A stretch of DNA of 64,000 bases from Aphanomyces cochlioides (taxonomy: Eukaryota; Oomycota; Saprolegniomycetes; Saprolegniales; Verrucalvaceae): NCBI GenBank assembly GCA_019828595.1, contig JAHQRK010000058.1, positions 1 through 64,000 on the forward strand, in the 5' to 3' direction. The position numbers and the translations under genes were made by a program. Below the pieces are notes generated by a model, which was given only the letters and a program-made list of their open reading frames with translations, was not told the DNA's origin and made no database searches. The first letter of the stretch is position 1. Each line of letters opens with the position of its first letter. Below, one piece after another: positions 17,001 to 35,979 of the stretch.

Positions 17001-18155
17001 CTCGCTGCGGGCAGTGTCAAGGGCTTGACGGGCGGTATTAACAATGGATGTCTCAACGAGTCCCATGTCGAATGCTCGGCGGGAAGTAAGCCACTTCATC
17101 TTGAGGCTGTTGAGTGTGTACTTCATCGAGTCAATGTACTGGCGATGACTGACTTGGAGACGCTTCTTCATTCTCTTCAACCAGCCGTACCACTTTGCGC
17201 CAAAGTTTTGAGTGTCGTCTGCGCGCATCTCGTCCAAAAGTTGATTGGCTTCGGCCTTGATCGCTGCGACTACTTGAGGGTTCTTTAAGAGCTCACGGGG
17301 GAGGCGCCAGTAACTTCGGTCGGGAGCTCGCTGCTCGCAGGAGAGGACCACTTTGTGTTCCATGTGGTCGCCTGCAAAGCTGCTTGGGGAATAGCTTGAA
17401 CGTGCGTACGTTTGAGCGACGATATCTTGGTCCACAAACAGGTAGTCGAGGCGGTTGCTTCGACCAGGGCCGCTGTAAACGCGCTCGTTGGGGTGGTGCA
17501 TCCTCCACGCATCGATAACACCAAGTGCTGAAAGCCAGGCAATGCATTCCGCCTTACCAGCGTTGTGGTCTTGGCGAGGTCGAGTCGCGTCCAGATGCTC
17601 CTCCAGGGGTAAGTTGAAATCGCCTCCGACAAAGTGAATGCTGTCGTCTTCAAAGTCGCGAGGCAGATCGTCGAAAAACGGTGCTCGAGAGTGAGCGATA
17701 ACCGGGGCATAGACGTTGTGAAAGTACACAGGAACGCCGTCCCACTGAGTTCGAACAACCATGTATCTTCCAGGTCGGTCATGGGTGGTCAAGTGTTGCA
17801 GATCGAGGAATCCAGGCATGGATCCATGGAAATACGATGCCACACCGCAGCGCCGATTGTTGAGTGAGTCGACGCGATCAGTGCGGAGATCGTTGGTGAA
17901 GAGCTTGTATTTGCCAACGCCTACTTCGTTGTTGAGGTGGAGTTGGAAGGTTTCGAGATGTTTGATGTTATTGATTTTGGTTTCTTGAAAGAAAACGGCT
18001 TGGGTCGGAATTTGGAGTCGCCGCGCCACAAGATGTCCGTTGTCTTTCAGCCCATTGAGGTTGGCAGTGGTCAGTTCGAGTATGGGGAACTTGGTGAAGA
18101 GACCGGCCGCGACCACCTTAGCCACGGAACGCGACAGACGTTGCGTTCGCAACAT
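14001..18155 (-). CDS. ORF2 (endonuclease-reverse transcriptase) of A2, intact
   Basis: This is a complete 1384-aa frame with the same start (MLRTQRLSRS) and stop as in A3, where the domains are described. It differs from A3 by a few residues, e.g. Arg for His at 376, Ala for Val at 428 and Glu for Lys at 1316. With ORF1 truncated and the 5' end gone, the protein could at most act on RNA from other copies. No promoter is visible, the upstream neighbour being tRNA 2 in the opposite orientation. Confidence 0.92.
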   Translation of the reverse strand: MLRTQRLSRSVAKVVAAGLFTKFPILELTTANLNGLKDNGHLVARRLQIPTQAVFFQETKINNIKHLETFQLHLNNEVGVGKYKLFTNDLRTDRVDSLNNRRCGVASYFHGSMPGFLDLQHLTTHDRPGRYMVVRTQWDGVPVYFHNVYAPVIAHSRAPFFDDLPRDFEDDSIHFVGGDFNLPLEEHLDATRPRQDHNAGKAECIAWLSALGVIDAWRMHHPNERVYSGPGRSNRLDYLFVDQDIVAQTYARSSYSPSSFAGDHMEHKVVLSCEQRAPDRSYWRLPRELLKNPQVVAAIKAEANQLLDEMRADDTQNFGAKWYGWLKRMKKRLQVSHRQYIDSMKYTLNSLKMKWLTSRRAFDMGLVETSIVNTARQALDTARSEYRQFNLDQQFDFHANVNERGTSHFFRRPKGIKVPLSSVTINGATSTDPSEVKAGFTSHWKNIMVTPRDQPPLNRARRRAIIRAITRRLTQEQRDALESPLTAEDLCGALKSMNPNKSPGSDGWPAAFFQVSPDVFAQILLKVFNYQLTHHGHLLLQQRRSAVALLFKAGDRGDPGNYRPITLMSVEVKILSRALAYRLAQVAPYLAHPSQAGFVPGRRLHDHVMLVQALQTFCTNEDHDYYATFLDFSKAYDMVDQGFLFDVLKEMNIGPTFVSWVQLLYNTPLVQIIFNDGLGPTIRPTRGVKQGCPLSCMLFVLYLEPLGEMLRGSPDFGIPLPNGDSLTSIYFADDTTLLSSSLQAAVEQMAIVEDFCSVSGARLNVAKCMTLALNNNLDIEDIDDGGLLNVLPSEKPVKYLGILFGHRLPRDFQVQQLNDKFLAAFQTWGSRARTIQGRKLIVSTMLLSLLWHVTAAVYVPPTMVAVWQRMVNKYILGRKTQITDHHRSTICRKWQFDQKLGLGIPHVASKLRTQRLLRLQLLMQPNSPNTFAPWKLLVKRQFSRVMNKLYRDTHPFDFLTYFPNHSSKWLFLWELHPLWHDIWHQWAATPMAKRTASPPSLEELLNLPVWLTSYPALQVGPAGATSNVVKTALCRRWCRHASQNGFHCLKDFLTRQGTWPTRAAFIDRLSSNNRAAQVTLQANGAMGFAAPERAGQVYSHLTKIFDQVLRTSGVRTGTALTDIDTTSHPFKALFKDQLLSFERWPKRLVSRLAHHAPSDGKPHPVATSSRVEQQDIATYVRLIRKTCRWPPPLHGDVWFRLLFNMLPVNSRLFYLQPQQPDVICCVYTNCDAPENQHHAFHTCSRVYPLWRFHATAWRCFGVNFDWTAITNIDRFQVNERGSQLQDILFVLWALLCASNLHYIWTTHNAAKFESKEPPPPEIWQEVSFIRWHASIRRWLRLQEVDSPQRVEAISAINTLHRQPVYRPLVAKYPTLLALQPSAPN

Positions 18156-18756
18156 CTCCCAGCATGAGTGTCTGAGTGTCGGGTTGGAACATCACTTGGT
18201 TGTCGAAGGTGGGGTCCAGGGAGCCAGCCTCATGGAATTCCAGGATCGTGGTCAAGACGTATCGCGACTTCTCGTCTTCGCCGGCATACAACGTTTCCAT
18301 GATATTCCAAATCAAGAGGCCGAAGCTCGTGTCAAGCAATATGGCAGATAGCGATACGCCCGACAAACAGCGGGAGCCCAAATGAGAAGCCAGTGCAGTG
18401 ACCGGGTACTTGGTAGAGGCCACGATCGCAGCATCACTGTTGTAGTACGTTGGAGCATGAATGGCCAAGAGAACTTCTGCCACAGCCAACACTTCTTCCA
18501 GGTCGCCGCGATGGAGGGAAATCTCGTCGCCGTCAATGGTAGTATCGATGAAGTCGATGTTCTTGAATAGCTCGATGTTGCTGAAGATGGCTTGAACGTG
18601 CTCGCGGGTCATACGCACACCCCACGTCAATGAGTACAGCTGGGAGAACGGTTTGTCTCCACCCCAAGTCGCTCGAAGCCACCGATGGAGGAGGCGTTGT
18701 CTCACAAAGTACTCAAAGCATGCACGGTCTTCATCAAAAAGTCGGTGCAGTTGCAC
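18118..18756 (-). pseudogene. ORF1 C-terminal fragment in A2
   Basis: It encodes the last ~210 residues of ORF1 (from QLHRLFDEDRACFEYF to SVAFRG). The frame stays open across the junction into the antisense of tRNA 2, where an ATG at 18783 would give a 221-aa product starting MLYRLSYTT. Whether this chimera is ever translated is unknown; I treat it as a truncation by-product. Confidence 0.75.
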
Positions 18757-18829
18757 GGTCGTATAGCTCAGTCGGTAGAGCATGGTGCTAATAACGCCAG
18801 GGTCCTGGGTTCGAGCCCCAGTATGACCA
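18757..18829 (+). tRNA. tRNA-Ile(AAT), copy 2
   Basis: Base for base the same gene as copy 1, with a T7 instead of a T6 terminator just downstream (18833-18839). The upstream side is the broken ORF1 of A2 rather than a native flank. Confidence 0.97.
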
Positions 18830-19829
18830 ACGTTTTTTTCCCTTTTCTCCGATTTCGTCCTCTCCTCCCAACATTCTTGCCTTTCCTTAGGATTCCTCCT
18901 GTATTCTTCTCAGCTCTTACTAGTCACCTCATGCCACGTCCAGCACGAAAAGATGTGCTCACCTCTACGCACATATGGATAAGACATTCCTTGAATCTCT
19001 CTTTCACGGACTGTGGTCCATCTGCAGTGTCCATCTATACTCTTGACAAGACAAATGCAGTCTTGTTTTTGTTCTGTTGAGTCTCTTCGCGAGGCTTGCT
19101 CCAAACGCTCGTGTGTTTACGATGGTTGACACATCGAGATACGCCGACATGTCTTGATGTAGTCATGCAATCGTTTGCAATGATCTCTGAGTCTGTGAAT
19201 TTCATTTGAATCACCTCAACGTGGCAGCCAAGGCATGCATCCAAAATACATGTAAATAGGAATCTACACGGATAAACAAAACGAAGCATCTCGAATGGGA
19301 TCGACAATCTTTTCAAGATCGTGTAGCTTTGCCTTCACAAAGCTCTGTCCTGGCTTGTTGGCGTTATATGAATGAGCCACTTGACAGTGGTCGACAACGA
19401 CGATGAACTTTTCTCCATACTGAAGCAAAGTATTTGAGTTTTGATAAGAAATTTGACCCGCCGAATATGAATTTCATGAGGATTTGCATGCAATAAGAAA
19501 TAACTTGGAAAACATTATAGCGTTTGAGAAACATGACTTTAAAGACGAAAATGTAGGTCAAAACTCTCTGCTAATAATAACGTTTATAATTAAATAGTAT
19601 GCGTGTAAAAGGATATGGACAGAGGACACGAGGAATGAAGCTTGGGACTGTCGAGGGCTGACGACGAGCGGATGCCAAATTGAATTGCGTAGGTTTTGTT
19701 TTGTTGGGAGAGTGGATGGTGTGTGGGATATGTTGTAGGTTTCTTTTGTGTTTGGAAAAAAAGTGTGTGTGTCAATGTGTTTGAGAACGTGTGTTGTGTG
19801 ATGTGGTGTGTATGGGAATAAGTATAATA
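18830..19829. other. Spacer 2 of the tRNA module
   Basis: Same content as spacer 1. It carries the private variant gtgtttgg (others gtgtgtgg) in the GT-rich tract near 19750, shared only with spacer 4. The coding-like stretch is at 19264-19473. Confidence 0.8.
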
Positions 19830-19843
19830 GGTCGTATAGCTCA
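19830..19843 (+). repeat. 14-bp target-site duplication left of B2
   Basis: The sequence ggtcgtatagctca stands between spacer 2 and the B2 3' end. Confidence 0.9.
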
Positions 19844-21534
19844 ATGACAATCGGGGTATATTTGACCTTTAACCCCTATAAATATTTGCCTAGACGACCC
19901 AATGGGGAACAAGGACTACTAAGTTCTACTCGAAAGCCACTTGAATCGTTGCGTGAGTTCGATTGAGCTCTTGCATTGTCTTGAAATCTTGAGACTTCTT
20001 TACACAAGTGTCGCTCGCAAGTTCTTCTCCCAAAACCAAGTGTAGTTGGTATGAGACTTGAGTTTTTCGACTATCTCGGAGACTTGCATTGCTTCATCAC
20101 TGTCCATTGTAGGATCACGGAGCATTCGTCTGATATTTGCGGTCCACGAAACAAGAGATACTTCCTTGACCGCCTGGATGTATGGCACTGTTTTGCCTTC
20201 AAACTTGGTTCGATTGCGATGAATCCAAAAGTCCCGTAGCAAAGATGAAACGAGAAGGACCCACAAACGACGAATCACTGAAAAATGAGACACCCATTCT
20301 TCAGAAACCGCGAATTCGTCGAGGTTGATAATCGTATTCCATGTAAATGGAATACCAAACGGCCGCCACGCTGCTTGATGCCAATTCCACACAGGCTTGA
20401 CAAACTTGCAGTCGAACAGGATGTGTTGTATCGTTTCGACGGCTGAGCAACCAGGAAAGGAGCATTCGATAATGCTAGGGTTGGTGTCTTGAAGGAAAAA
20501 GAAGCGAGAGTTGACGGGTAGCATCCGAAACAAGATTCGCCACCACACATCGGCTTGAACAGGAGTTGGATATCGCATCAAAGGTTTCACAGTCTTGTTC
20601 ATGTATTTCTTGATCGCCAAATCATTGTTTCTTGAATCGCTCGACAAGGGGTGCTGTTTGGTGAGTAGTGGCGCGCAAAAGCAAATCGATCGGATGTACT
20701 TGCGCGGCCATTGTTGAAAAGGAACAAAGACATTCTTCCAAACTTGTCCGACGGGGATTTGAACTTCATGATTGGGAGGCACAGCTTCCACGAGAGGGAT
20801 ACCCAGTACTTGCCATACAGTGGTCGCAATGAGTGAAAGCAGGGAGTACAAATGGCGAAACACGCGTGGAAAATCATCGCCAGGGAACCGCCAAACGTAA
20901 GGCTCCATTTGCAACTTGAATTCTTCATAGGAGGGCCACACGCGTTGTGTGGTGACGAAATCGTCCAAGCAATGCAAGCCTTCTTGGGCGAGGAACTTGT
21001 AGAAGGGACGATGATGTTTGAGGGCGACAGCAAGCGAGGTTGGTCCATTGGAACCAGGAACCAAAAACAGCGGATGAATTTGCAGCCAAACAGACATGGT
21101 AGGGAGCTGAGATTGTGTCGGCGTTTCAGGACATTTGCGCGTAAGGGGGATACGATGCCAGTTGGCCCAGATTTTCCGCCACAACAAAGGGAGTACTTCA
21201 AGTCGCATGTGATTTGTGTTGTGGTTGGGATGATACATGAGGCAGTCCCACGACGAGTATCTTGCGAACGGCTCCATGCACCTTCGAAAGAGCTGCTTCG
21301 GGAGAACAGACCATAACGATGGTTCTTCGTTGTCGGTCTGAACAAGGAATTGAAGTCGCTGAACACGTTGAGCACGAATTCTTGACGCAATATGCGGAAT
21401 CCTGAGACCCAGGCTGGGATGATACGCCACGCCAGAGTTGATCAAGGACATGTGCTTGTCTTCCTTGTGTCGCTTTCTTGTCAAGATGAACTTGTACACC
21501 ATGGACTGCCACTTGGCGACCGAGTCTTCAGGGA
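19844..21534 (-). mobile_element. B2: 5'-truncated family B LINE
   Basis: It is 1691 bp with the same ends as B1. Together with tRNA 2 and spacer 2 it makes a 2778-bp module. Confidence 0.9.
20000..21534 (-). pseudogene. ORF2 C-terminal fragment of B2
   Basis: The open frame has the same predicted 500-aa product as in B1 (first ATG at 21502). It includes the C-x4-C-x7-H-x4-C finger but no RT core. Confidence 0.85.
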
Positions 21535-21548
21535 GGTCGTATAGCTCA
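21535..21548 (+). repeat. 14-bp target-site duplication between B2 and A3
   Basis: The sequence ggtcgtatagctca; its partner is the first 14 nt of tRNA 3 at 28877. Confidence 0.9.
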
Positions 21549-21567
21549 CTGCAATGGGGAGGTATAT

Positions 21568-21602
21568 TAATAGACTTTCAATATCTACTAATACTAATAT
21601 TG
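21568..21602 (-). other. Possible pseudoknot in the family A 3' UTR
   Basis: In the sense RNA, CAATAT (complement of 21597-21602) can pair with ATATTG (21579-21584), and TAGTAG in that loop can pair with CTATTA (21568-21573, one G-U) downstream, giving an H-type order. It lies 20-54 nt from the 3' end, where a reverse transcriptase starting at a nick would be expected to recognise its own RNA. The stems are short, so chance is possible. Confidence 0.3.
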
Positions 21603-21705
21603 CCTACTAACGGCTCATCCCACTTCCAAATGCTTCAGCAGATTTTCTACTTTGGGCTTTGGAGTACAGCGATTTTTGACTTGTTGAATAAATACTTGGG
21701 GCTTG

Positions 21706-24700
21706 TTAATTTGGGGCTGAAGGTTGGAGCGCGAGCAAAGTCGGGTACTTGGCTACCAGTGGGCGATAGACAGGTTGTCTATGCAAAGTATTGATTGCTG
21801 AAATTGCTTCCACTCGTTGAGGGCTGTCAACTTCTTGGAGGCGAAGCCATCTGCGGATCGATGCATGCCATCGGATGAAGCTGACTTCTTGCCAAATTTC
21901 TGGCGGAGGCGGCTTCTTCGATTCGAACTTGGCGGCGTTGTGCGTTGTCCAAATATAGTGAAGGTTGGAAGCACACAGAAGAGCCCAGAGCACAAACAGT
22001 ATGTCTTGAAGCTGGCTACCGCGTTCGTTGACTTGAAAGCGGTCGATGTTGGTGATGGCAGTCCAATCGAAATTGACACCGAAGCATCGCCAAGCGGTCG
22101 CGTGAAAACGCCAAAGGGGATACACGCGAGAGCAGGTGTGGAAGGCGTGGTGTTGGTTCTCCGGTGCGTCGCAATTGGTATAGACACAGCAAATTACGTC
22201 TGGCTGCTGAGGTTGCAAGTAGAACAAGCGCGAGTTGACAGGCAGCATGTTGAACAACAGTCGAAACCAAACGTCGCCATGGAGGGGAGGCGGCCAACGG
22301 CATGTTTTGCGGATGAGTCGCACGTAGGTCGCAATATCTTGTTGCTCGACGCGGGACGATGTCGCCACTGGGTGCGGTTTTCCATCCGAAGGGGCGTGAT
22401 GCGCCAAACGTGATACGAGTCGCTTGGGCCAACGCTCGAAGGATAGCAATTGATCTTTGAAAAGTGCCTTGAAAGGGTGACTTGTTGTATCGATATCGGT
22501 CAAAGCAGTTCCAGTTCGAACGCCAGACGTGCGGAGGACTTGGTCGAATATCTTGGTGAGGTGGCTATAAACTTGACCAGCACGTTCGGGTGCTGCAAAT
22601 CCCATCGCGCCGTTCGCTTGTAACGTCACTTGTGCCGCACGGTTGTTGGATGACAGTCGATCAATAAACGCAGCTCTTGTAGGCCATGTCCCTTGCCGTG
22701 TCAAGAAGTCTTTGAGGCAGTGGAAACCGTTTTGAGACGCATGTCTACACCATCGACGACACAGAGCAGTCTTCACGACATTTGATGTAGCACCCGCAGG
22801 ACCAACTTGCAGAGCGGGGTAGGATGTCAGCCACACGGGGAGGTTCAAAAGTTCTTCGAGGCTTGGTGGCGAAGCGGTTCGCTTGGCCATAGGTGTGGCG
22901 GCCCATTGATGCCAAATGTCGTGCCAAAGAGGATGCAGCTCCCACAAAAACAACCACTTGGAGCTGTGGTTGGGGAAGTACGTGAGAAAGTCGAACGGGT
23001 GGGTGTCGCGATACAGCTTGTTCATGACACGGGAAAATTGTCTCTTGACAAGCAACTTCCATGGGGCAAATGTGTTGGGTGAATTGGGCTGCATCAAGAG
23101 TTGGAGCCGCAGCAGTCGCTGAGTCCGAAGCTTCGAAGCCACATGCGGAATACCGAGGCCGAGTTTTTGATCGAACTGCCACTTGCGGCAAATAGTTGAG
23201 CGATGATGGTCGGTGATTTGCGTCTTCCGACCAAGGATGTACTTGTTGACCATTCTTTGCCAAACGGCAACCATCGTTGGAGGCACATACACTGCAGCCG
23301 TGACATGCCATAACAACGACAACAACATGGTCGATACGATGAGTTTGCGGCCTTGGATGGTTCGCGCACGACTTCCCCACGTTTGAAACGCAGCCAGAAA
23401 CTTGTCGTTCAGTTGCTGGACTTGAAAATCGCGCGGCAGTCGGTGGCCAAAGAGAATACCAAGGTATTTCACTGGCTTCTCGCTCGGCAAGACGTTCAAG
23501 AGGCCACCATCGTCGATGTCTTCGATATCGAGATTGTTGTTGAGCGCCAAAGTCATGCACTTGGCAACGTTGAGACGAGCTCCAGACACAGAGCAAAAGT
23601 CTTCGACAATTGCCATTTGCTCGACCGCCGCTTGGAGGGATGACGAGAGTAGAGTCGTGTCGTCGGCAAAGTAGATGCTCGTCAGTGAGTCTCCATTTGG
23701 AAGGGGAATACCAAAATCAGGAGATCCGCGTAGCATTTCGCCGAGTGGCTCGAGGTAAAGTACGAAGAGCATGCACGATAGGGGGCAACCTTGCTTGACT
23801 CCGCGGGTAGGCCGTATGGTAGGGCCAAGACCGTCGTTGAAAATGATCTGGACCAGAGGCGTATTGTAAAGCAACTGAACCCAAGACACAAATGTGGGAC
23901 CGATGTTCATCTCCTTGAGTACGTCGAAGAGAAAGCCTTGGTCAACCATATCGTATGCCTTGGAAAAGTCGAGAAACGTCGCGTAGTAGTCGTGGTCTTC
24001 ATTGGTACAGAAAGTCTGCAATGCTTGTACCAGCATCACGTGGTCGTGCAAGCGACGGCCAGGGACAAAACCAGCTTGGCTTGGGTGAGCGAGGTATGGG
24101 GCAACTTGTGCAAGACGGTAGGCCAGCGCCCGCGATAGAATCTTGACTTCAACCGACATGAGAGTAATCGGCCGATAGTTGCCAGGGTCGCCTCTGTCTC
24201 CAGCCTTGAACAAGAGCGCCACTGCACTTCGGCGTTGTTGGAGCAGGAGGTGACCGTGATGGGTGAGTTGGTAGTTGAACACCTTGAGCAGGATTTGGGC
24301 GAATACGTCCGGGGAGACTTGAAAGAAAGCTGCAGGCCAGCCGTCTGAACCAGGAGACTTGTTCGGGTTCATAGACTTGAGCGCGCCGCACAGGTCTTCC
24401 GCCGTGAGAGGACTTTCCAGAGCGTCGCGCTGTTCTTGAGTGAGACGTCGAGTAATGGCTCGAATGATAGCTCGGCGACGGGCCCGATTCAACGGTGGTT
24501 GGTCTCTTGGAGTGACCATGATGTTTTTCCAATGAGACGTAAAACCAGCCTTGACTTCAGACGGGTCAGTCGACGTTACACCGTTGATTGTCACGGACGA
24601 GAGCGGCACTTTGATCCCCTTGGGTCGACGAAAAAAGTGACTGGTACCTCGCTCGTTGACGTTGGCGTGAAAGTCGAATTGCTGATCCAGGTTGAACTGT

Positions 24701-25860
24701 CGGTACTCGCTGCGGGCAGTGTCAAGGGCTTGATGGGCGGTATTAACAATGGATGTCTCAACGAGTCCCATGTCGAATGCTCGGCGGGAAGTAAGCCACT
24801 TCATCTTGAGGCTGTTGAGTGTGTACTTCATCGAGTCAATGTACTGGCGATGACTGACTTGGAGACGCTTCTTCATTCTCTTCAACCAGCCGTACCACTT
24901 TGCGCCAAAGTTTTGAGTGTCGTCTGCGCGCATCTCGTCCAAAAGTTGATTGGCTTCGGCCTTGATCGCTGCGACTACTTGAGGGTTCTTTAAGAGCTCA
25001 CGGGGGAGGCGCCAGTAACTTCGGTCGGGAGCTCGCTGCTCGCAGGAGAGGACCACTTTGTGTTCCATGTGGTCGCCTGCAAAGCTGCTTGGGGAATAGC
25101 TTGAACGTGCGTACGTTTGAGCGACGATATCTTGGTCCACAAACAGGTAGTCGAGGCGGTTGCTTCGACCAGGGCCGCTGTAAACGCGCTCGTTGGGGTG
25201 GTGCATCCTCCACGCATCGATAACACCAAGTGCTGAAAGCCAGGCAATGCATTCCGCCTTACCAGCGTTGTGGTCTTGGCGAGGTCGAGTCGCGTCCAGA
25301 TGCTCTTCCAGGGGTAAGTTGAAATCGCCTCCGACAAAGTGAATGCTGTCGTCTTCAAAGTCGCGAGGCAGATCGTCGAAAAACGGTGCTCGAGAGTGAG
25401 CGATAACCGGGGCATAGACGTTGTGAAAGTACACAGGAACGCCGTCCCACTGAGTTCGAACAACCATGTATCTTCCAGGTCGGTCATGGGTGGTCAAGTG
25501 TTGCAGGTCGAGGAATCCAGGCATGGATCCATGGAAATACGATGCCACACCGCAGCGCCGATTGTTGAGTGAGTCGACGCGATCAGTGCGGAGATCGTTG
25601 GTGAAGAGCTTGTATTTGCCAACGCCTACTTCGTTGTTGAGGTGGAGTTGGAAGGTTTCGAGATGTTTGATGTTATTGATTTTGGTTTCTTGAAAGAAAA
25701 CGGCTTGGGTCGGAATTTGGAGTCGCCGCGCCACAAGATGTCCGTTGTCTTTCAGCCCATTGAGGTTGGCAGTGGTCAGTTCGAGTATGGGGAACTTGGT
25801 GAAGAGACCGGCCGCGACCACCTTAGCCACGGAACGCGACAGACGTTGCGTTCGCAACAT
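21706..25860 (-). CDS. ORF2: APE-type endonuclease and reverse transcriptase (1384 aa)
   Basis: This is the replication enzyme of the element: it nicks the target and copies the RNA at the nick. Residues ~25-272 are an exonuclease-endonuclease-phosphatase domain with the Asn of ANLNG (32), Glu of QETK (58), Tyr of NVYAP (149), GGDFN (177-181), RLDY (235-238) and the final Asp-His (263-264). Residues ~490-805 are the RT: NKSPGSDG (500-507), NYRPI (561), QAGFVPGR (595), LDFSKAYD (630), RGVKQGCPLS (686), catalytic YFADD (730-734) and KYLG (798). A zinc finger C-x4-C-x7-H-x4-C lies at 1225-1243. No RNase H domain was seen. The start is the first ATG in the frame, inside the end of ORF1 and within a hairpin. 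The enzyme presumably recognises the tRNA-Ile D-arm; which residues do so is unknown. Confidence 0.95.
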   Translation of the reverse strand: MLRTQRLSRSVAKVVAAGLFTKFPILELTTANLNGLKDNGHLVARRLQIPTQAVFFQETKINNIKHLETFQLHLNNEVGVGKYKLFTNDLRTDRVDSLNNRRCGVASYFHGSMPGFLDLQHLTTHDRPGRYMVVRTQWDGVPVYFHNVYAPVIAHSRAPFFDDLPRDFEDDSIHFVGGDFNLPLEEHLDATRPRQDHNAGKAECIAWLSALGVIDAWRMHHPNERVYSGPGRSNRLDYLFVDQDIVAQTYARSSYSPSSFAGDHMEHKVVLSCEQRAPDRSYWRLPRELLKNPQVVAAIKAEANQLLDEMRADDTQNFGAKWYGWLKRMKKRLQVSHRQYIDSMKYTLNSLKMKWLTSRRAFDMGLVETSIVNTAHQALDTARSEYRQFNLDQQFDFHANVNERGTSHFFRRPKGIKVPLSSVTINGVTSTDPSEVKAGFTSHWKNIMVTPRDQPPLNRARRRAIIRAITRRLTQEQRDALESPLTAEDLCGALKSMNPNKSPGSDGWPAAFFQVSPDVFAQILLKVFNYQLTHHGHLLLQQRRSAVALLFKAGDRGDPGNYRPITLMSVEVKILSRALAYRLAQVAPYLAHPSQAGFVPGRRLHDHVMLVQALQTFCTNEDHDYYATFLDFSKAYDMVDQGFLFDVLKEMNIGPTFVSWVQLLYNTPLVQIIFNDGLGPTIRPTRGVKQGCPLSCMLFVLYLEPLGEMLRGSPDFGIPLPNGDSLTSIYFADDTTLLSSSLQAAVEQMAIVEDFCSVSGARLNVAKCMTLALNNNLDIEDIDDGGLLNVLPSEKPVKYLGILFGHRLPRDFQVQQLNDKFLAAFQTWGSRARTIQGRKLIVSTMLLSLLWHVTAAVYVPPTMVAVWQRMVNKYILGRKTQITDHHRSTICRKWQFDQKLGLGIPHVASKLRTQRLLRLQLLMQPNSPNTFAPWKLLVKRQFSRVMNKLYRDTHPFDFLTYFPNHSSKWLFLWELHPLWHDIWHQWAATPMAKRTASPPSLEELLNLPVWLTSYPALQVGPAGATSNVVKTALCRRWCRHASQNGFHCLKDFLTRQGTWPTRAAFIDRLSSNNRAAQVTLQANGAMGFAAPERAGQVYSHLTKIFDQVLRTSGVRTGTALTDIDTTSHPFKALFKDQLLSFERWPKRLVSRLAHHAPSDGKPHPVATSSRVEQQDIATYVRLIRKTCRWPPPLHGDVWFRLLFNMLPVNSRLFYLQPQQPDVICCVYTNCDAPENQHHAFHTCSRVYPLWRFHATAWRCFGVNFDWTAITNIDRFQVNERGSQLQDILFVLWALLCASNLHYIWTTHNAAKFESKKPPPPEIWQEVSFIRWHASIRRWLRLQEVDSPQRVEAISAINTLHRQPVYRPLVAKYPTLLALQPSAPN

Positions 25861-28822
25861 CTCCCAGCATGAGTGTCTGAGTGTCGGGTTGGAACATCAC
25901 TTGGTTGTCGAAGGTGGGGTCCAGGGAGCCAGCCTCATGGAATTCCAGGATCGTGGTCAAGACGTATCGCGACTTCTCGTCTTCGCCGGCATACAACGTT
26001 TCCATGATATTCCAAATCAAGAGGCCGAAGCTCGTGTCAAGCAATATGGCAGATAGCGATACGCCCGACAAACAGCGGGAGCCCAAATGAGAAGCCAGTG
26101 CAGTGACCGGGTACTTGGTAGAGGCCACGATCGCAGCATCACTGTTGTAGTACGTTGGAGCATGAATGGCCAAGAGAACTTCTGCCACAGCCAACACTTC
26201 TTCCAGGTCGCCGCGGTGGAGGGAAATCTCGTCGCCGTCAATGGTAGTATCGATGAAGTCGATGTTCTTGAATAGCTCGATGTTGCTGAAGATGGCTTGA
26301 ACGTGCTCGCGGGTCATACGCACACCCCACGTCAATGAGTACAGCTGGGAGAACGGTTTGTCTCCACCCCAAGTCGCTCGAAGCCACCGATGGAGGAGGC
26401 GTTGTCTCACAAAGTACTCAAAGCATGCACGGTCTTCATCAAAAAGTCGGTGCAGTTGCAAGCCAAATTCAATCGGGGAACGCTCGAGATGGCTACACAG
26501 CATGTCGACGCGGCCGTCGTTGATGAGTTGGGCAAGGTTGAACGAGCTGTTGGTCACTGCATCTTCGACTTGGGTTGAGAGATGCAATGGAACTTTGGCT
26601 GTCTTGGTGTCGAGGTCTTGTAGTTCGGCGAGAATTTCGTCAAGAGACATTTCTATGCGCTTGGGAACGCCATCTTGGATCTTGGTGCCGCCGACAAATT
26701 GACCGGACGTAGGGAGGTGGGGAGGGTCATCCGAGACGTCCAGCTTGGGTACAATCGTTGAGATCTTGTAATCGCCAAACTGAGCAACGTGTTCCTCGGG
26801 GTTGACACACACACGTTCGTCGAGGGCTTCAAACATGTTGGGCGAAATCCAAGAGCGGCCATGCTCGGGGGAATCCACTTGCTGTTGCGTCTTCTTGCGC
26901 TTGCCTCTCGACGCCTTGACGCCAGTCCACTGCGGAGGGTTGGCTTGCGCAGTTTTCCGACGTTTTGGCGCCTTGGGAGTCGAAGAAGGCGGGTTGGTTG
27001 GGCTGGGAGCTGGCTTGTTCAATCCATATTGGCGGGACGTTGCATCAAGGTCCAAACGAACCAAGTTCTTGTCACGAAAATACCACCCTTGACCGTACAC
27101 GCGGAGACAACGGCCCTTGAAAAGAATTTCTTCGACGAGACGGCCGTCGCGCTGTATGGTCGTTGGTACGGAGGTTCCTTCAAAGTAAAGGCGGTACCGA
27201 GAGCTCGCCATACCGCTTGAAGAGGAAACGTTGGGGTAGGAGCCCCACAGGAAGCGTGGCTCCAACTTGGTCATGACGTCGAAGATCAGGCGCTCTTCGT
27301 CTTGATCTTGAAGGCCTTGAGGGATGTCCATGAAAAATCCGCCGAGGACGTGCGGAACGTTCATCGTGAAGTGTTGGGACGAGCCATCTCGAGCGACTTG
27401 AATCTTAAACGCGATGCCTCGCAGCTTCGTCATCGCTTCGTGAGAGGCAACACCCCACTTGAGCATGCGGTTCGGGATGTCCTTCTCGCATCTCACAATG
27501 TCAGCAATCGCAGTGTCGAGGCCGAGGGCTTGGTTGTCGAAAAGGATCGATGCCATGGCAGCTGAAACATCGATGGTCTTCGTGTGTGCACCCGTGGGCA
27601 TCTGCAACCAGCCGACGATGCCGCGCGCCGAGTGCTTCTGGATCGGGAGGGTGTCTTCAAACGTGAGGGTTCCAGCAGCACGCTTGCGAAGGAGGGGTTC
27701 GAGTTCCTCCATCGTGGGCTGGTAAGGAGCAACGTCCTTGGTCTTGATGGCCTTGGCAGACTGAGACCGCTGTTGCGCTTGGAAGGCCCATACGTCGTTG
27801 GGGGCCTGGCGGTTGTTGGGTTGGCCACGGCCAGGTGTCTGGGCTCCGCCAGATTGAGAAATGTTTTCCAAATGCGATCCGGGTGAAGCCTGAGATGATG
27901 GCTGGCGGACTGAGTGAGAGTCCGAGTCGTGCGTCAGACCAACACTCAAGCGTGCGTCAGAGGCTTGGTCTTGTCCGGACCCTGTCCCATGGTGGACAGA
28001 GTCACACGTTTGACCTTCACTCGCGTTGGACTTCGAGAAGCTTCCATGGGTGACTTGGTCTTGAGTATTCCCATGACCAACACTGGCCACAGGGTTGTTC
28101 GCGATTGTTCCAGATCTTGCCCGATGATTCTTCGAGAAGAGACCATCACTCATGGAGCGACTAGTCTCGATGGGATCTTGACCTGTCGCCAGAGTGGACT
28201 TGTCGCTCGGGGGATTCTTCGAGAAGGGACCTTCACTCAGGGATGGACTGTTCTCGAATCTTCCTTGACATGTCGTCATGTTGACGTCGGTGCTTGAGCG
28301 AGTCTTCGAGAAGCCACTATCACTCGTCGAGAGAACATTCTCGAAAGGAACAGAACCCAACGGAGTCTTGCCAGGCAAGCCACCATCACTCACGATGGAC
28401 GTGGTTGATGGAGATTCTTCGGGCAAGGTCGTTGACGTCATGAGCACATCTTCCGAGGTTGGAACGCCGTCTTGCCAGGCTTCGTCGCAAGTGTCAGAGG
28501 TCGTTGGATCATTCGCGGGATCGCAAGCCTTCGTCGAGCGAGTCACAGGCAAGGGTTCAAAACGGCGCGGTTTCGAAGGGGTTGCACGTTGACGTGGAAA
28601 CGGAACGCGCGTTGGAGTAGGGAGCGGATTCGTAGACGCGTCATGATGCGAAGCGTTGGAAGCATCGTCGACGTCCTCTTCCAACGACGACGCCATGTCG
28701 GTATCGCTTGGGGATGGGTCAGCAACGACGATGACGTCCATATCGCTGGGGCTGGACGCCGAGGGAGAGAACGCGGAGGAGCAAGATGGGGCACGAGGGT
28801 TGGTCGAGCGGGTAGCAACCAT
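25823..28822 (-). CDS. ORF1 protein of family A (999 aa), putative RNA-binding partner
   Basis: I chose the ATG at 28822 (MVATRSTNPR); the frame is open further upstream through the 5' UTR into antisense tRNA, but A0 and A6 support this start. Residues 1-160 are Ser/Thr/Pro/Asp-rich and probably disordered. Residues 160-246 hold three 29-aa repeats with FEN and FSKN cores, plus more diverged units on both sides. Residues ~485-595 (GGFFMDIPQG to LVRLDLD) have an alternating strand/helix pattern that might be an RRM-like fold (inference). Basic clusters PKRRK (619) and RGKRKK (639) look like nuclear signals or RNA contacts. The C-terminal ~265 residues match nothing I recognise. No CCHC knuckle is visible. 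It is long for a LINE ORF1. Confidence 0.9.
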   Translation of the reverse strand: MVATRSTNPRAPSCSSAFSPSASSPSDMDVIVVADPSPSDTDMASSLEEDVDDASNASHHDASTNPLPTPTRVPFPRQRATPSKPRRFEPLPVTRSTKACDPANDPTTSDTCDEAWQDGVPTSEDVLMTSTTLPEESPSTTSIVSDGGLPGKTPLGSVPFENVLSTSDSGFSKTRSSTDVNMTTCQGRFENSPSLSEGPFSKNPPSDKSTLATGQDPIETSRSMSDGLFSKNHRARSGTIANNPVASVGHGNTQDQVTHGSFSKSNASEGQTCDSVHHGTGSGQDQASDARLSVGLTHDSDSHSVRQPSSQASPGSHLENISQSGGAQTPGRGQPNNRQAPNDVWAFQAQQRSQSAKAIKTKDVAPYQPTMEELEPLLRKRAAGTLTFEDTLPIQKHSARGIVGWLQMPTGAHTKTIDVSAAMASILFDNQALGLDTAIADIVRCEKDIPNRMLKWGVASHEAMTKLRGIAFKIQVARDGSSQHFTMNVPHVLGGFFMDIPQGLQDQDEERLIFDVMTKLEPRFLWGSYPNVSSSSGMASSRYRLYFEGTSVPTTIQRDGRLVEEILFKGRCLRVYGQGWYFRDKNLVRLDLDATSRQYGLNKPAPSPTNPPSSTPKAPKRRKTAQANPPQWTGVKASRGKRKKTQQQVDSPEHGRSWISPNMFEALDERVCVNPEEHVAQFGDYKISTIVPKLDVSDDPPHLPTSGQFVGGTKIQDGVPKRIEMSLDEILAELQDLDTKTAKVPLHLSTQVEDAVTNSSFNLAQLINDGRVDMLCSHLERSPIEFGLQLHRLFDEDRACFEYFVRQRLLHRWLRATWGGDKPFSQLYSLTWGVRMTREHVQAIFSNIELFKNIDFIDTTIDGDEISLHRGDLEEVLAVAEVLLAIHAPTYYNSDAAIVASTKYPVTALASHLGSRCLSGVSLSAILLDTSFGLLIWNIMETLYAGEDEKSRYVLTTILEFHEAGSLDPTFDNQVMFQPDTQTLMLGDVANATSVAFRG
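25843..25860 (-). promoter_or_regulatory. Hairpin on the ORF2 start codon inside the ORF1-ORF2 overlap
   Basis: In the sense RNA, ATGTTGCG-AA-CGCAACGT can fold into an 8-bp stem (one wobble) that contains the ORF2 ATG. It lies 18 nt before the end of the overlap (ORF1 stop at 25823-25825). A structure at this place could help or restrain re-initiation on ORF2. The same sequence is in A1-A7; A0 has lost it together with the ATG. Confidence 0.35.
28020..28400 (-). repeat. 87-bp minisatellite inside ORF1
   Basis: On the plus strand the unit begins with variants of ttcttcgagaagagaccatc followed by actcatgga. Three units in good register cover 28085-28345; more diverged units are seen near 28030 and 28375. 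It encodes the 29-aa repeats of ORF1. It occurs in A1, A3, A5 and A6 and is missing from A0. Confidence 0.8.
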
Positions 28823-28840
28823 ATTGTCAGATAGCGTAGA

Positions 28841-28876
28841 GTGGTACTGCGGGGTAGCTGGCAAATTGGAAACTGG
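28841..28876 (-). promoter_or_regulatory. Conserved 36-nt 5' terminus of the element
   Basis: The 36 nt next to the tRNA are identical in A1, A3, A5 and A6 and also in the otherwise very diverged A0 (2853-2888). Key words on the plus strand are gtggtactgcgggg and caaattggaaactgg. Such conservation in an untranslated leader suggests an internal promoter or an RNA element; gene conversion is the alternative. Confidence 0.4.
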
Positions 28877-28949
28877 GGTCGTATAGCTCAGTCGGTAGAG
28901 CATGGTGCTAATAACGCCAGGGTCCTGGGTTCGAGCCCCAGTATGACCA
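28877..28949 (+). tRNA. tRNA-Ile(AAT), copy 3
   Basis: Identical to copy 1; T6 terminator at 28953-28958. Its 5' base directly follows the 5' terminus of the full-length element A3, so a divergent pair (LINE leftward, tRNA rightward) starts from one point. Confidence 0.97.
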
Positions 28950-29963: not shown

Positions 29964-31654
29964 ATGACAATCGGGGTATATTTGACCTTTAACCCCTATA
30001 AATATTTGCCTAGACGACCCAATGGGGAACAAGGACTACTAAGTTCTACTCGAAAGCCACTTGAATCGTTGCGTGAGTTCGATTGAGCTCTTGCATTGTC
30101 TTGAAATCTTGAGACTTCTTTACACAAGTGTCGCTCGCAAGTTCTTCTCCCAAAACCAAGTGTAGTTGGTATGAGACTTGAGTTTTTCGACTATCTCGGA
30201 GACTTGCATTGCTTCATCACTGTCCATTGTAGGATCACGGAGCATTCGTCTGATATTTGCGGTCCACGAAACAAGAGATACTTCCTTGACCGCCTGGATG
30301 TATGGCACTGTTTTGCCTTCAAACTTGGTTCGATTGCGATGAATCCAAAAGTCCCGTAGCAAAGATGAAACGAGAAGGACCCACAAACGACGAATCACTG
30401 AAAAATGAGACACCCATTCTTCAGAAACCGCGAATTCGTCGAGGTTGATAATCGTATTCCATGTAAATGGAATACCAAACGGCCGCCACGCTGCTTGATG
30501 CCAATTCCACACAGGCTTGACAAACTTGCAGTCGAACAGGATGTGTTGTATCGTTTCGACGGCTGAGCAACCAGGAAAGGAGCATTCGATAATGCTAGGG
30601 TTGGTGTCTTGAAGGAAAAAGAAGCGAGAGTTGACGGGTAGCATCCGAAACAAGATTCGCCACCACACATCGGCTTGAACAGGAGTTGGATATCGCATCA
30701 AAGGTTTCACAGTCTTGTTCATGTATTTCTTGATCGCCAAATCATTGTTTCTTGAATCGCTCGACAAGGGGTGCTGTTTGGTGAGTAGTGGCGCGCAAAA
30801 GCAAATCGATCGGATGTACTTGCGCGGCCATTGTTGAAAAGGAACAAAGACATTCTTCCAAACTTGTCCGACGGGGATTTGAACTTCATGATTGGGAGGC
30901 ACAGCTTCCACGAGAGGGATACCCAGTACTTGCCATACAGTGGTCGCAATGAGTGAAAGCAGGGAGTACAAATGGCGAAACACGCGTGGAAAATCATCGC
31001 CAGGGAACCGCCAAACGTAAGGCTCCATTTGCAACTTGAATTCTTCATAGGAGGGCCACACGCGTTGTGTGGTGACGAAATCGTCCAAGCAATGCAAGCC
31101 TTCTTGGGCGAGGAACTTGTAGAAGGGACGATGATGTTTGAGGGCGACAGCAAGCGAGGTTGGTCCATTGGAACCAGGAACCAAAAACAGCGGATGAATT
31201 TGCAGCCAAACAGACATGGTAGGGAGCTGAGATTGTGTCGGCGTTTCAGGACATTTGCGCGTAAGGGGGATACGATGCCAGTTGGCCCAGATTTTCCGCC
31301 ACAACAAAGGGAGTACTTCAAGTCGCATGTGATTTGTGTTGTGGTTGGGATGATACATGAGGCAGTCCCACGACGAGTATCTTGCGAACGGCTCCATGCA
31401 CCTTCGAAAGAGCTGCTTCGGGAGAACAGACCATAACGATGGTTCTTCGTTGTCGGTCTGAACAAGGAATTGAAGTCGCTGAACACGTTGAGCACGAATT
31501 CTTGACGCAATATGCGGAATCCTGAGACCCAGGCTGGGATGATACGCCACGCCAGAGTTGATCAAGGACATGTGCTTGTCTTCCTTGTGTCGCTTTCTTG
31601 TCAAGATGAACTTGTACACCATGGACTGCCACTTGGCGACCGAGTCTTCAGGGA
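29964..31654 (-). mobile_element. B3: 5'-truncated family B LINE
   Basis: It is 1691 bp and matches B1 in both ends and in its predicted protein; it occupies the position equivalent to B1 in the 17.8-kb duplication. Confidence 0.9.
30120..31654 (-). pseudogene. ORF2 C-terminal fragment of B3
   Basis: The frame is open to the truncation, with its first ATG at 31622 (500 aa), identical to the B1 product as far as compared. Confidence 0.85.
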
Positions 31655-31668: not shown

Positions 31669-31825
31669 CTGCAATGGGGAGGTATATTAATAGACTTTCA
31701 ATATCTACTAATACTAATATTGCCTACTAACGGCTCATCCCACTTCCAAATGCTTCAGCAGATTTTCTACTTTGGGCTTTGGAGTACAGCGATTTTTGAC
31801 TTGTTGAATAAATACTTGGGGCTTG

Positions 31826-34800
31826 TTAATTTGGGGCTGAAGGTTGGAGCGCGAGCAAAGTCGGGTACTTGGCTACCAGTGGGCGATAGACAGGTTGTCT
31901 ATGCAAAGTATTGATTGCTGAAATTGCTTCCACTCGTTGAGGGCTGTCAACTTCTTGGAGGCGAAGCCATCTGCGGATCGATGCATGCCATCGGATGAAG
32001 CTGACTTCTTGCCAAATTTCTGGCGGAGGCGGCTCCTTCGATTCGAACTTGGCGGCGTTGTGCGTTGTCCAAATATAGTGAAGGTTGGAAGCACACAGAA
32101 GAGCCCAGAGCACAAACAGTATGTCTTGAAGCTGGCTACCGCGTTCGTTGACTTGAAAGCGGTCGATGTTGGTGATGGCAGTCCAATCGAAATTGACACC
32201 GAAGCATCGCCAAGCGGTCGCGTGAAAACGCCAAAGGGGATACACGCGAGAGCAGGTGTGGAAGGCGTGGTGTTGGTTCTCCGGTGCGTCGCAATTGGTA
32301 TAGACACAGCAAATTACGTCTGGCTGCTGAGGTTGCAAGTAGAACAAGCGCGAGTTGACAGGCAGCATGTTGAACAACAGTCGAAACCAAACGTCGCCAT
32401 GGAGGGGAGGCGGCCAACGGCATGTTTTGCGGATGAGTCGCACGTAGGTCGCAATATCTTGTTGCTCGACGCGGGACGATGTCGCCACTGGGTGCGGTTT
32501 TCCATCCGAAGGGGCGTGATGCGCCAAACGTGATACGAGTCGCTTGGGCCAACGCTCGAAGGATAGCAATTGATCTTTGAAAAGTGCCTTGAAAGGGTGA
32601 CTTGTTGTATCGATATCGGTCAAAGCAGTTCCAGTTCGAACGCCAGACGTGCGGAGGACTTGGTCGAATATCTTGGTGAGGTGGCTATAAACTTGACCAG
32701 CACGTTCGGGTGCTGCAAATCCCATCGCGCCGTTCGCTTGTAACGTCACTTGTGCCGCACGGTTGTTGGATGACAGTCGATCAATAAACGCAGCTCTTGT
32801 AGGCCATGTCCCTTGCCGTGTCAAGAAGTCTTTGAGGCAGTGGAAACCGTTTTGAGACGCATGTCTACACCATCGACGACACAGAGCAGTCTTCACGACA
32901 TTTGATGTAGCACCCGCAGGACCAACTTGCAGAGCGGGGTAGGATGTCAGCCACACGGGGAGGTTCAAAAGTTCTTCGAGGCTTGGTGGCGAAGCGGTTC
33001 GCTTGGCCATAGGTGTGGCGGCCCATTGATGCCAAATGTCGTGCCAAAGAGGATGCAGCTCCCACAAAAACAACCACTTGGAGCTGTGGTTGGGGAAGTA
33101 CGTGAGAAAGTCGAACGGGTGGGTGTCGCGATACAGCTTGTTCATGACACGGGAAAATTGTCTCTTGACAAGCAACTTCCATGGGGCAAATGTGTTGGGT
33201 GAATTGGGCTGCATCAAGAGTTGGAGCCGCAGCAGTCGCTGAGTCCGAAGCTTCGAAGCCACATGCGGAATACCGAGGCCGAGTTTTTGATCGAACTGCC
33301 ACTTGCGGCAAATAGTTGAGCGATGATGGTCGGTGATTTGCGTCTTCCGACCAAGGATGTACTTGTTGACCATTCTTTGCCAAACGGCAACCATCGTTGG
33401 AGGCACATACACTGCAGCCGTGACATGCCATAACAACGACAACAACATGGTCGATACGATGAGTTTGCGGCCTTGGATGGTTCGCGCACGACTTCCCCAC
33501 GTTTGAAACGCAGCCAGAAACTTGTCGTTCAGTTGCTGGACTTGAAAATCGCGCGGCAGTCGGTGGCCAAAGAGAATACCAAGGTATTTCACTGGCTTCT
33601 CGCTCGGCAAGACGTTCAAGAGGCCACCATCGTCGATGTCTTCGATATCGAGATTGTTGTTGAGCGCCAAAGTCATGCACTTGGCAACGTTGAGACGAGC
33701 TCCAGACACAGAGCAAAAGTCTTCGACAATTGCCATTTGCTCGACCGCCGCTTGGAGGGATGACGAGAGTAGAGTCGTGTCGTCGGCAAAGTAGATGCTC
33801 GTCAGTGAGTCTCCATTTGGAAGGGGAATACCAAAATCAGGAGATCCGCGTAGCATTTCGCCGAGTGGCTCGAGGTAAAGTACGAAGAGCATGCACGATA
33901 GGGGGCAACCTTGCTTGACTCCGCGGGTAGGCCGTATGGTAGGGCCAAGACCGTCGTTGAAAATGATCTGGACCAGAGGCGTATTGTAAAGCAACTGAAC
34001 CCAAGACACAAATGTGGGACCGATGTTCATCTCCTTGAGTACGTCGAAGAGAAAGCCTTGGTCAACCATATCGTATGCCTTGGAAAAGTCGAGAAACGTC
34101 GCGTAGTAGTCGTGGTCTTCATTGGTACAGAAAGTCTGCAATGCTTGTACCAGCATCACGTGGTCGTGCAAGCGACGGCCAGGGACAAAACCAGCTTGGC
34201 TTGGGTGAGCGAGGTATGGGGCAACTTGTGCAAGACGGTAGGCCAGCGCCCGCGATAGAATCTTGACTTCAACCGACATGAGAGTAATCGGCCGATAGTT
34301 GCCAGGGTCGCCTCTGTCTCCAGCCTTGAACAAGAGCGCCACTGCACTTCGGCGTTGTTGGAGCAGGAGGTGACCGTGATGGGTGAGTTGGTAGTTGAAC
34401 ACCTTGAGCAGGATTTGGGCGAATACGTCCGGGGAGACTTGAAAGAAAGCTGCAGGCCAGCCGTCTGAACCAGGAGACTTGTTCGGGTTCATAGACTTGA
34501 GCGCGCCGCACAGGTCTTCCGCCGTGAGAGGACTTTCCAGAGCGTCGCGCTGTTCTTGAGTGAGACGTCGAGTAATGGCTCGAATGATAGCTCGGCGACG
34601 GGCCCGATTCAACGGTGGTTGGTCTCTTGGAGTGACCATGATGTTTTTCCAATGAGACGTAAAACCAGCCTTGACTTCAGACGGGTCAGTCGACGTTGCA
34701 CCGTTGATTGTCACGGACGAGAGCGGCACTTTGATCCCCTTGGGTCGACGAAAAAAGTGACTGGTACCTCGCTCGTTGACGTTGGCGTGAAAGTCGAATT

Positions 34801-35979
34801 GCTGATCCAGGTTGAACTGTCGGTACTCGCTGCGGGCAGTGTCAAGGGCTTGACGGGCGGTATTAACAATGGATGTCTCAACGAGTCCCATGTCGAATGC
34901 TCGGCGGGAAGTAAGCCACTTCATCTTGAGGCTGTTGAGTGTGTACTTCATCGAGTCAATGTACTGGCGATGACTGACTTGGAGACGCTTCTTCATTCTC
35001 TTCAACCAGCCGTACCACTTTGCGCCAAAGTTTTGAGTGTCGTCTGCGCGCATCTCGTCCAAAAGTTGATTGGCTTCGGCCTTGATCGCTGCGACTACTT
35101 GAGGGTTCTTTAAGAGCTCACGGGGAGGCGCCAGTAACTTCGGTCGGGAGCTCGCTGCTCGCAGGAGAGGACCACTTTGTGTTCCATGTGGTCGCCTGCA
35201 AAGCTGCTTGGGGAATAGCTTGAACGTGCGTACGTTTGAGCGACGATATCTTGGTCCACAAACAGGTAGTCGAGGCGGTTGCTTCGACCAGGGCCGCTGT
35301 AAACGCGCTCGTTGGGGTGGTGCATCCTCCACGCATCGATAACACCAAGTGCTGAAAGCCAGGCAATGCATTCCGCCTTACCAGCGTTGTGGTCTTGGCG
35401 AGGTCGAGTCGCGTCCAGATGCTCCTCCAGGGGTAAGTTGAAATCGCCTCCGACAAAGTGAATGCTGTCGTCTTCAAAGTCGCGAGGCAGATCGTCGAAA
35501 AACGGTGCTCGAGAGTGAGCGATAACCGGGGCATAGACGTTGTGAAAGTACACAGGAACGCCGTCCCACTGAGTTCGAACAACCATGTATCTTCCAGGTC
35601 GGTCATGGGTGGTCAAGTGTTGCAGATCGAGGAATCCAGGCATGGATCCATGGAAATACGATGCCACACCGCAGCGCCGATTGTTGAGTGAGTCGACGCG
35701 ATCAGTGCGGAGATCGTTGGTGAAGAGCTTGTATTTGCCAACGCCTACTTCGTTGTTGAGGTGGAGTTGGAAGGTTTCGAGATGTTTGATGTTATTGATT
35801 TTGGTTTCTTGAAAGAAAACGGCTTGGGTCGGAATTTGGAGTCGCCGCGCCACAAGATGTCCGTTGTCTTTCAGCCCATTGAGGTTGGCAGTGGTCAGTT
35901 CGAGTATGGGGAACTTGGTGAAGAGACCGGCCGCGACCACCTTAGCCACGGAACGCGACAGACGTTGCGTTCGCAACAT
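31826..35979 (-). pseudogene. ORF2 of A4, single-base frameshift in the endonuclease
   Basis: This frame equals ORF2 of A2 except that the five-G run in the segment for WRLPRELL has only four G (35122-35125). This stops the N-terminal frame after ~288 residues, just past the endonuclease domain; the RT and finger remain in one frame of ~1100 codons below it. Because the change is in a homopolymer and A2 is intact, a sequencing or assembly error is a serious alternative to a real mutation. Confidence 0.88.

Follow-up and report, generated by a model that had tools for sequence, protein, structure and literature searches.

Introduction

Transposons directed to tRNA genes are a standard case of low-harm targeting, and those that we found described in print, as far as the available excerpts go, either insert away from the coding part or interrupt it. 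Among LINEs, the closest described systems are those of dictyostelids, TRE5, TRE3, NLTR-A and NLTR-B, which are likewise tRNA-directed and either of the APE type or RNH-bearing. According to the available portion of PMC5911963, TRE5 inserts 40-54 bp upstream and TRE3 40-150 bp downstream of the tRNA gene, NLTR-A 2-6 bp and NLTR-B 39-64 bp upstream, so that an initial sequence-only reading of the present locus was right to state that TRE elements insert outside the gene. In fish and in Perkinsus, Dada DNA transposons enter the tRNA A box at nt 8-13, at TAGCTC in Perkinsus tRNA-Ile and tRNA-Tyr (excerpts of PMC3706591 and PMC8869645). Site-specific LINEs are likewise known from other multicopy RNA genes, namely Utopia and Keno (U2), Mutsu (5S), Dewa (tRNA-Leu spacer) and R2 (28S); the excerpts of PMC4640811 and PMC3706591 describe for them neither a tRNA-coding target nor a gene-restoring duplication. 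Moreover, among the matches listed in a search of the open-licence PMC literature by titles and abstract openings, no LINE within the tRNA-coding part was found.

As far as these sources go, the LINE families A, B and C of Aphanomyces cochlioides differ from each of these systems. Whereas TRE-type elements insert outside the gene at a distance, these families insert exactly, within the gene, between nt 14 and nt 15. With Dada they share the position within box A. However, Dada elements carry a DDE transposase and duplicate 6-7 bp, so that restoration of the gene is impossible, whereas here we find LINEs with a reverse transcriptase and 14-16 bp shared between the junctions; and while each Perkinsus Dada family reportedly keeps to its own tRNA genes, several tRNA species are used per family here. 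In contrast to Utopia of oomycetes, which has a restriction-like endonuclease and a U2 target, the endonuclease is of the APE type and the target is a tRNA gene. In bacteria, phages and islands whose integrase inserts them into tRNA genes likewise restore a complete gene, but there by sequence that the element carries and here by duplication of the target. Taken together, we consider it highly probable (roughly 0.93) from the sequences compared that families A, B and C form a lineage of L1-like APE non-LTR retrotransposons that insert by target-primed reverse transcription into box A of tRNA genes of several kinds and thereby restore the gene. The three families enter genes of an essential class within the promoter and leave a complete gene behind, across nine tRNA species.

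The insertion site in the tRNA-Ile array

The window, i.e. the whole stretch of 64,000 nucleotides from contig JAHQRK010000058.1 that was analysed, is a tRNA-Ile array with repeats that are mostly 99.4-99.9% alike (Table 1). A search for nt 1-14 of tRNA-Ile(AAT), GGTCGTATAGCTCA, with up to two mismatches allowed yielded 20 copies, all of them exact and on the + strand, versus a mean of 0.19 in 100 shuffles, which rules out a chance origin. The 14-mer stands directly before all eight family A 3′-ends and all six family B 3′-ends (the first coordinate of each element in Table 1), and the remaining 6 of the 20 copies are the heads of complete tRNA-Ile(AAT) genes. This confirms the observation of the sequence-only reading that every A and B 3′-end in the window joins tRNA nt 1-14. 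Its further statements are supported: the insertion lies inside box A between nt 14 and nt 15, the second boundary falls at base 1 of the mature tRNA, and the duplication regenerates a whole tRNA gene, as found behind the A element at 21549-28876. Outside the window, an exact 14-mer at C7:726669 is followed by a T, with neither a tRNA continuation nor an element; as a single case it carries no weight.

Table 1. Features of the window by position; ORFs are given from the first ATG.
Feature	Position	Strand	Remark
Family A, truncated	2903..3980	-	
Family A, long	3995..11051	-	frames broken
tRNA-Ile(AAT)	11052..11124	+	
Family B	12139..13829	-	
Family A, truncated	13844..18756	-	
tRNA-Ile(AAT)	18757..18829	+	
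tRNA array spacer	18830..19829	+	~1 kb
14-mer before B	19830..19843	+	with native tRNA upstream spacer
Family B, 5′-truncated	19844..21534	-	1691 bp
14-bp target duplication, upstream copy	21535..21548	+	tRNA-Ile nt 1-14
Family A, near full length	21549..28876	-	7328 bp, antisense to tRNA; 3′-end 21549, 5′-end 28876
A ORF2	21709..25860	-	APE-like endonuclease, reverse transcriptase, Cys/His C-terminus
A ORF1	25826..28822	-	relatives in Aphanomyces species
Complete tRNA-Ile(AAT) behind A	28877..28949	+	its nt 1-14 are the downstream duplication copy
Family B	29964..31654	-	
Family A, truncated	31669..36580	-	
tRNA-Ile(AAT)	36581..36653	+	
Family B	37668..39358	-	
Family A	39373..46700	-	7328 bp, directly followed by another 14-mer and A
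Family A	46715..54045	-	7331 bp
tRNA-Ile(AAT)	54046..54118	+	
Family B	55132..56822	-	
Family A, truncated	56837..62233	-	
tRNA-Ile(AAT)	62234..62306	+	
Family B	63321..64000	-	cut by window end

Structure of the elements

The assignment of the element to the LINEs, already made from the letters of the window, was upheld by its protein. ORF2 of family A matches RVT_1 (3.5e-34), the sole Pfam domain found in A, and its best match among solved structures is L1 ORF2p (1.1e-56). The reverse transcriptase is of the LINE type and is preceded by an APE-type endonuclease; LTRs are absent, and 5′-truncation and target duplication are present. The endonuclease aligns to L1 endonuclease chains across part of the domain, and PF03372 is annotated (precomputed) in some relatives. 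In 17 aligned rows the residues Y149, D179, N181, D237 and H264 are invariant and E58 is nearly so; we take these six to be the catalytic residues. A Cys/His C-terminus, as seen in ORF2, is typical of L1. ORF1 yielded no match in Pfam. One scan of viral contigs for relatives with DNA context returned none. The 3′-ends are constant (A ..CATTGCAG, B ..GATTGTCAT, C ..CATTGACAT) and are devoid of the poly(A) tail that is usual in L1. The term L1-like denotes similarity and not a placement between L1 and Tx1, the quick tree having been built without named reference clades.

Target range in the genome

The A. cochlioides genome contains 225 exact A 3′-ends, of which 220 are preceded by TRGCTCA (TAGCTCA at 187, TGGCTCA at 33 more); 4 of the 225 were left unread. 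The flank table comprised 74 A and 32 B entries before one A and one B place, each listed twice, were merged. Thereafter, 72 of 73 distinct A ends with a flank read lie at nt 1-14 of nine tRNA genes (Ile, Phe, Tyr, Lys(CTT), Lys(TTT), Ala(AGC), Ala(CGC), Asn and Met), the 14-mer differing in each, and the remaining one is a chance match. The same holds for 31/31 B and 9/9 C flanks. The target is therefore common to the three families, and all sites have in common TRGCTCA|G within a tRNA context. In addition, family A is present on contigs C13, C15, C22, C23, C24, C27, C30, C34, C36, C78 and C1, and the Ala and Lys(TTT) insertions are found on other contigs, with other flanks.

Proposed mechanism and mode of recognition

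We infer that the endonuclease nicks the tRNA-sense strand past ..TRGCTCA, between nt 14 and nt 15, and that the free ..GCTCA end would serve as primer for copying the element RNA from its constant 3′-end, which lacks poly(A). The other strand would be cut 14 bp upstream, at base 1 of the mature tRNA. Fill-in would duplicate nt 1-14 and thus place an entire tRNA gene, both promoter boxes included, behind the 5′-end of the element, while the native 5′-flank and nt 1-14 would remain before its 3′-end. Since the restored box A would be a fresh target, later elements could stack at the same point, and homogenisation of the array would multiply element-loaded units. Seven A truncation points in the Ile arrays together with the constant 3′-end are consistent with target-primed reverse transcription. 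A speculative extension, which we place clearly below even odds, is a lineage in which the duplication is matched to the tRNA gene. Because one cut would fall at nt 14/15 and the other ahead of nt 1, every hit would restore gene and inner promoter, so that any TRGCTCA-type gene could be reloaded repeatedly and targets would not be exhausted, and read-through RNA bearing the antisense 14-mer, by pairing with the nicked ..TRGCTCA end, could carry specificity between tRNA species.

Alternatively, it may be the Pol III machinery (TFIIIB/TFIIIC) that guides the element to its target gene, in the way proposed for TRE5-A, while the endonuclease contributes no more than a short preference for TRGCTCA; we regard this as a serious candidate that falls somewhat short of an even chance. 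The genome contains 2523 copies of the octamer TAGCTCAG but only 673 places matching the longer tRNA pattern TAGCTCAGWYGGKAGAGC, and no end among those read (A, 72; B, 31; C, 9) lies at an octamer that is not part of a tRNA gene; moreover, ORF1 of TRE5-A binds TBP, a part of TFIIIB (excerpt of PMC5391098). However, recognition of a longer DNA site fits the same counts equally, some of the other octamers may be tRNA genes beyond the pattern used, and the position is base-exact, unlike the windows of TRE elements (PMC5911963, in the portion available). Whether an APE endonuclease locates box A by DNA sequence or by Pol III factors thereby becomes testable. Insertion into box A with restoration of the gene suggests a natural tool for placing DNA at tRNA genes with single-base accuracy, and it accounts for part of the tRNA array structure of this genome.

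The sequence-only reading had proposed a LINE specific for tRNA-Ile(AAT), in line with the ends read in the window, all of them at tRNA-Ile, and with Ile as the largest class of flanks (30/72 A, 26/31 B), the Ile contigs being those most fully read. However, the genome-wide tabulation upheld the junction with tRNA nt 1-14 (72/73 A, 31/31 B) but not the restriction to Ile: 42 of 72 A ends lie at the same position of eight other tRNA genes on further contigs, which refutes Ile specificity and renders this proposal most improbable.

Target duplication and independence of the copies

Empty units in the tRNA-Phe, tRNA-Tyr and tRNA-Ile arrays contain the 14-mer once. Removal of the insertion together with one 14-mer yields the empty unit in 194/194 columns for the tRNA-Phe array, 194/194 for tRNA-Tyr and 707/715 for tRNA-Ile. 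The 14-mer is thus a target-site duplication. The stretch common to both junctions comprises 14 bases in 7, 15 in 5 and 16 in 1 of 13 pairs, of which two Ile rows share a side, as do two Lys(TTT) rows. That the 14-mer is instead the element's own tRNA head in a tandem array amplified by recombination is scarcely credible. In its favour, the array units are almost the same in sequence and B shows in effect a single 5′-junction; against it, the 14-mer varies with the host tRNA, the truncation points of A and of C are several, and the Ala and Lys(TTT) insertions occupy other contigs with other flanks. The empty units, named by the sequence-only reading as a test of its own proposal, refute an element origin and decide in favour of that reading.

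Restoration of the gene by target duplication is not without exceptions. Of 20 points predicted by adding 7328 to a 3′-end, 10 show a complete tRNA; at the other 10 no tRNA was found, two of these showing a C 3′-end. One Ile tRNA head is broken off past the D-arm (C47:94069), and the A copies C54:65012 and C54:70355 extend into spacer, where a tRNA was looked for and not found, indicating that the gene is sometimes not preserved.

The contigs are repeat arrays in which assembly errors could occur, and the window copies are not all independent. In the array stretches of C54, C47 and 45 kb of C89, 25 of 26 family B copies have a readable 5′-junction. These fall into two 16-base types one base apart, so that B is in effect a single event; it looks like one old insertion spread along with the array. 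Together with the near identity of the units, this indicates that much of the copy number is amplification. Pure array amplification is ruled out by the Ala and Lys(TTT) sites on other contigs and by the several A and C truncation points. In the same stretches 27 of 29 family A junctions are readable; besides the seven truncation points, they include the near-full-length end in four variants and one spacer-entering type (two copies). The 4 copies of family C have 4 different junctions, and in tRNA-Met the elements form the stack A-C-C-A-C.

Empty tRNA units and the origin of the 14-mer

The 14-mer (nt 1-14 of the host tRNA gene) that stands before the 3' end of each inserted LINE belongs to the target, as the sequence-only reading had assumed: empty tRNA-Phe, tRNA-Tyr and tRNA-Ile units contain it once. 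In a tRNA-Phe array (contig C15, L090) an empty unit adjoins one filled with a 525-bp copy of family A, and the filled unit minus the insert and one 14-mer equals the empty one at 194/194 bases. The same subtraction in a tRNA-Tyr array (L088, L089) likewise gave 194/194. For tRNA-Ile, an empty unit of C89 (L043) was compared with the sequence on either side of the B+A stack in the window, and 707/715 columns agree. On C13, 16 Tyr box A places follow one another at intervals of ~1.18 kb; the tRNA-Tyr gene at the insertion site contains an intron.

In the eukaryotic genome surveyed (76.2 Mb, 94 contigs), the window corresponds to C54:1-64000 and represents a tRNA-Ile(AAT) gene array with six genes detected by ARAGORN, all six complete. 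The usual unit runs from the tRNA through a spacer of ~1.0 kb to a 14-mer, B, a second 14-mer and A, at times two, before the next tRNA. The Ile 14-mer GGTCGTATAGCTCA occurs 20 times in the window against 0.19 expected; six places are tRNA heads, and a recount confirmed the earlier figures of eight before A and six before B. Throughout the Ile stretches 23/24 tRNA heads have the same 80 bases. The remaining head (L011-L014, C47:94069) breaks off past the D-arm, where different DNA takes over.

Range of tRNA genes entered

The A 3' end CTGCAATGGGGAGG has 225 exact occurrences in the genome, 187 of which come after TAGCTCA. Of the other 38, 33 come after TGGCTCA, all on C78, where tRNA-Met(CAT) is present. 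Among the last five, the one whose flank was read (L057) lies in unrelated DNA and matches by chance. Flanks were read at 73 distinct A ends in all; 72 stand directly after nt 1-14 of a tRNA gene, the exception being this chance match. Likewise, all distinct ends read of B (31/31) and C (9/9) lie on tRNA nt 1-14. The specificity for tRNA-Ile that had been proposed did not hold, and a LINE restricted to this gene was rejected, as only 30/72 tRNA-sited A ends are located there.

LINE families and their distinct 3' ends at tRNA nt 1-14 (species assigned from complete genes with the same 14-mer, not copy by copy; C13:1543739 (A, Tyr) and C22:36362 (B) each counted once)
Family	Copy	Length (bp)	Structure	Ends by tRNA
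A	window 21549-28876	7328	antisense to tRNA; ORF1 and ORF2 long open frames	Ile 30, Phe 10, Ala(AGC) 9, Tyr 6, Asn 6, Lys(CTT) 4, Met 3, Ala(CGC) 3, Lys(TTT) 1
B	window	1691	5'-truncated	Ile 26, Lys(CTT) 2, Tyr 1, Lys(TTT) 1, Ala(CGC) 1
C	C47:81719-89845	8127	stop-free frames of 836, 1379 and 465 codons	Ile 4, Met 3, Lys(CTT) 1, Asn 1

Fate of the entered gene

At 13/13 junction pairs the stretch common to both sides comprises 14 (seven pairs), 15 (five) or 16 (one) bases. Since the extra one or two bases can be chance identity, these junctions place one insertion boundary between nt 14 and nt 15 and the other at the mature tRNA's first base, in agreement with the A14/G15 and first-base positions suggested before; this first base varies among the entered genes.

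For 20 A copies, sequence was fetched at the 3' end + 7328. A tRNA was present at 10/20 points: Lys(CTT) (L050), Tyr (L052), Ala (L053, L054, L055, L070), Phe (L062), Asn (L064, L067) and Met (L087). No tRNA was found at the other ten, two of which (L051, L065) show a C 3' end instead, the remaining eight being L063, L066, L068, L069, L071, L072, L073 and L086; truncated or stacked copies would be able to account for such points. ARAGORN gives lengths of 86 and 90 for the tRNA-Ala(AGC) genes behind A in L054 and L070, which have an extra or altered stretch past the anticodon stem and are perhaps damaged. Two A copies beyond the window (L001, C54:65012 and 70355) continue into the spacer of the array, no tRNA separating the two, and are probably recombination products.

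Independent insertions and target recognition

In the Ile arrays B shows in effect one 5' junction among the 25/26 copies with a readable junction, and thus represents a single insertion that spread as the array did. Among the 27/29 A copies read there, seven different truncation points occur besides four variants of the near-full-length end, and each of the four C copies has its own junction. Outside Ile, Ala(AGC) insertions have three different upstream flanks and Ala(CGC) insertions two, Lys(TTT) is hit at two places (C1, C12), and Asn has a minimum of two native flanks. As box A is restored at every insertion, insertions pile up; the stack at L084 reads A-C-C-A-C, with every element preceded by GCTCCTATGGCTCA. 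Upstream of an Ala and an Asn A insertion (L074, L082) the flanks finish alike, in ..cttgagtggttgac.gcaaaagtaaaagt; this is probably where the 5' end of yet another family with this target lies.

The genome has 2523 copies of the octamer TAGCTCAG versus 3988 for the reversed control, and 673 of the longer tRNA pattern TAGCTCAGWYGGKAGAGC versus 0. Up to 73% of the octamers, some of which may belong to other tRNA genes, thus lie outside the longer pattern, yet no tRNA-sited element end among the flanks read lies at one of these. Recognition may extend over more of the D-arm, or it may be assisted by Pol III factors; to the latter we give somewhat less than even odds.

Relation to known elements

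The dictyostelid tRNA-directed LINEs covered in the part of a review considered here all insert outside the gene (PMC5911963), which agrees with the sequence-only reading, and the corresponding part of PMC5006619 holds nothing contradicting this. Among the titles and abstract beginnings listed from open-access PMC papers, none concerned a LINE inside the tRNA-coding part. On this basis the elements would be target-specific LINEs with a new kind of target, one that restores itself. According to the excerpts considered, Dada elements also target the A box (nt 8-13), but are DNA transposons with 6-7 bp duplications (PMC3706591, PMC8869645), whereas here LINEs have 14-16 bases common at the junctions; Dewa is located in a tRNA-Leu spacer (PMC3706591). 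Utopia, known from oomycetes, differs in its U2 gene target and endonuclease type, as far as the excerpt of PMC4640811 goes. For A. cochlioides, a paper on oomycete tRNA arrays (PMC9584435) describes a raised proportion of tRNA-Met genes, and the part considered does not mention elements in them.

Proteins and relationships of the families

A has a constant 3' end and no poly(A) tail. Its ORF2 carries a reverse transcriptase (RVT_1 match), and its best match among solved structures is L1 ORF2p; a homology search matched AC1031_021720 [Aphanomyces cochlioides]. In an ORF2 alignment of 17 rows Y149, D179, N181, D237 and H264 are invariant and E58 nearly so, residues which we take to be those of the APE active site. 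A Pfam search with ORF1 gave no match; its named relatives are from A. astaci and A. invadans, in addition to unnamed ones.

C1 holds a 7093-bp B copy with broken frames. With A ORF2 it shares 47% identity over its best stretch (residues 38-642), with weaker matches beyond; the corresponding figures are 34% for the window's B piece and 64% for C ORF2. A quick tree of 36 rows, with long branches flagged and no reference clades, groups A and C, which may be of the L1 or of the Tx1 clade, among Aphanomyces, Thraustotheca and unnamed relatives. The third frame of C (L012-L013), 3' of ORF2, was not seen in A. The only blastn match between A and C was a common 65-bp 5' end (window 28812-28876; C47:89782-89845), which is 85% identical and may be a promoter.
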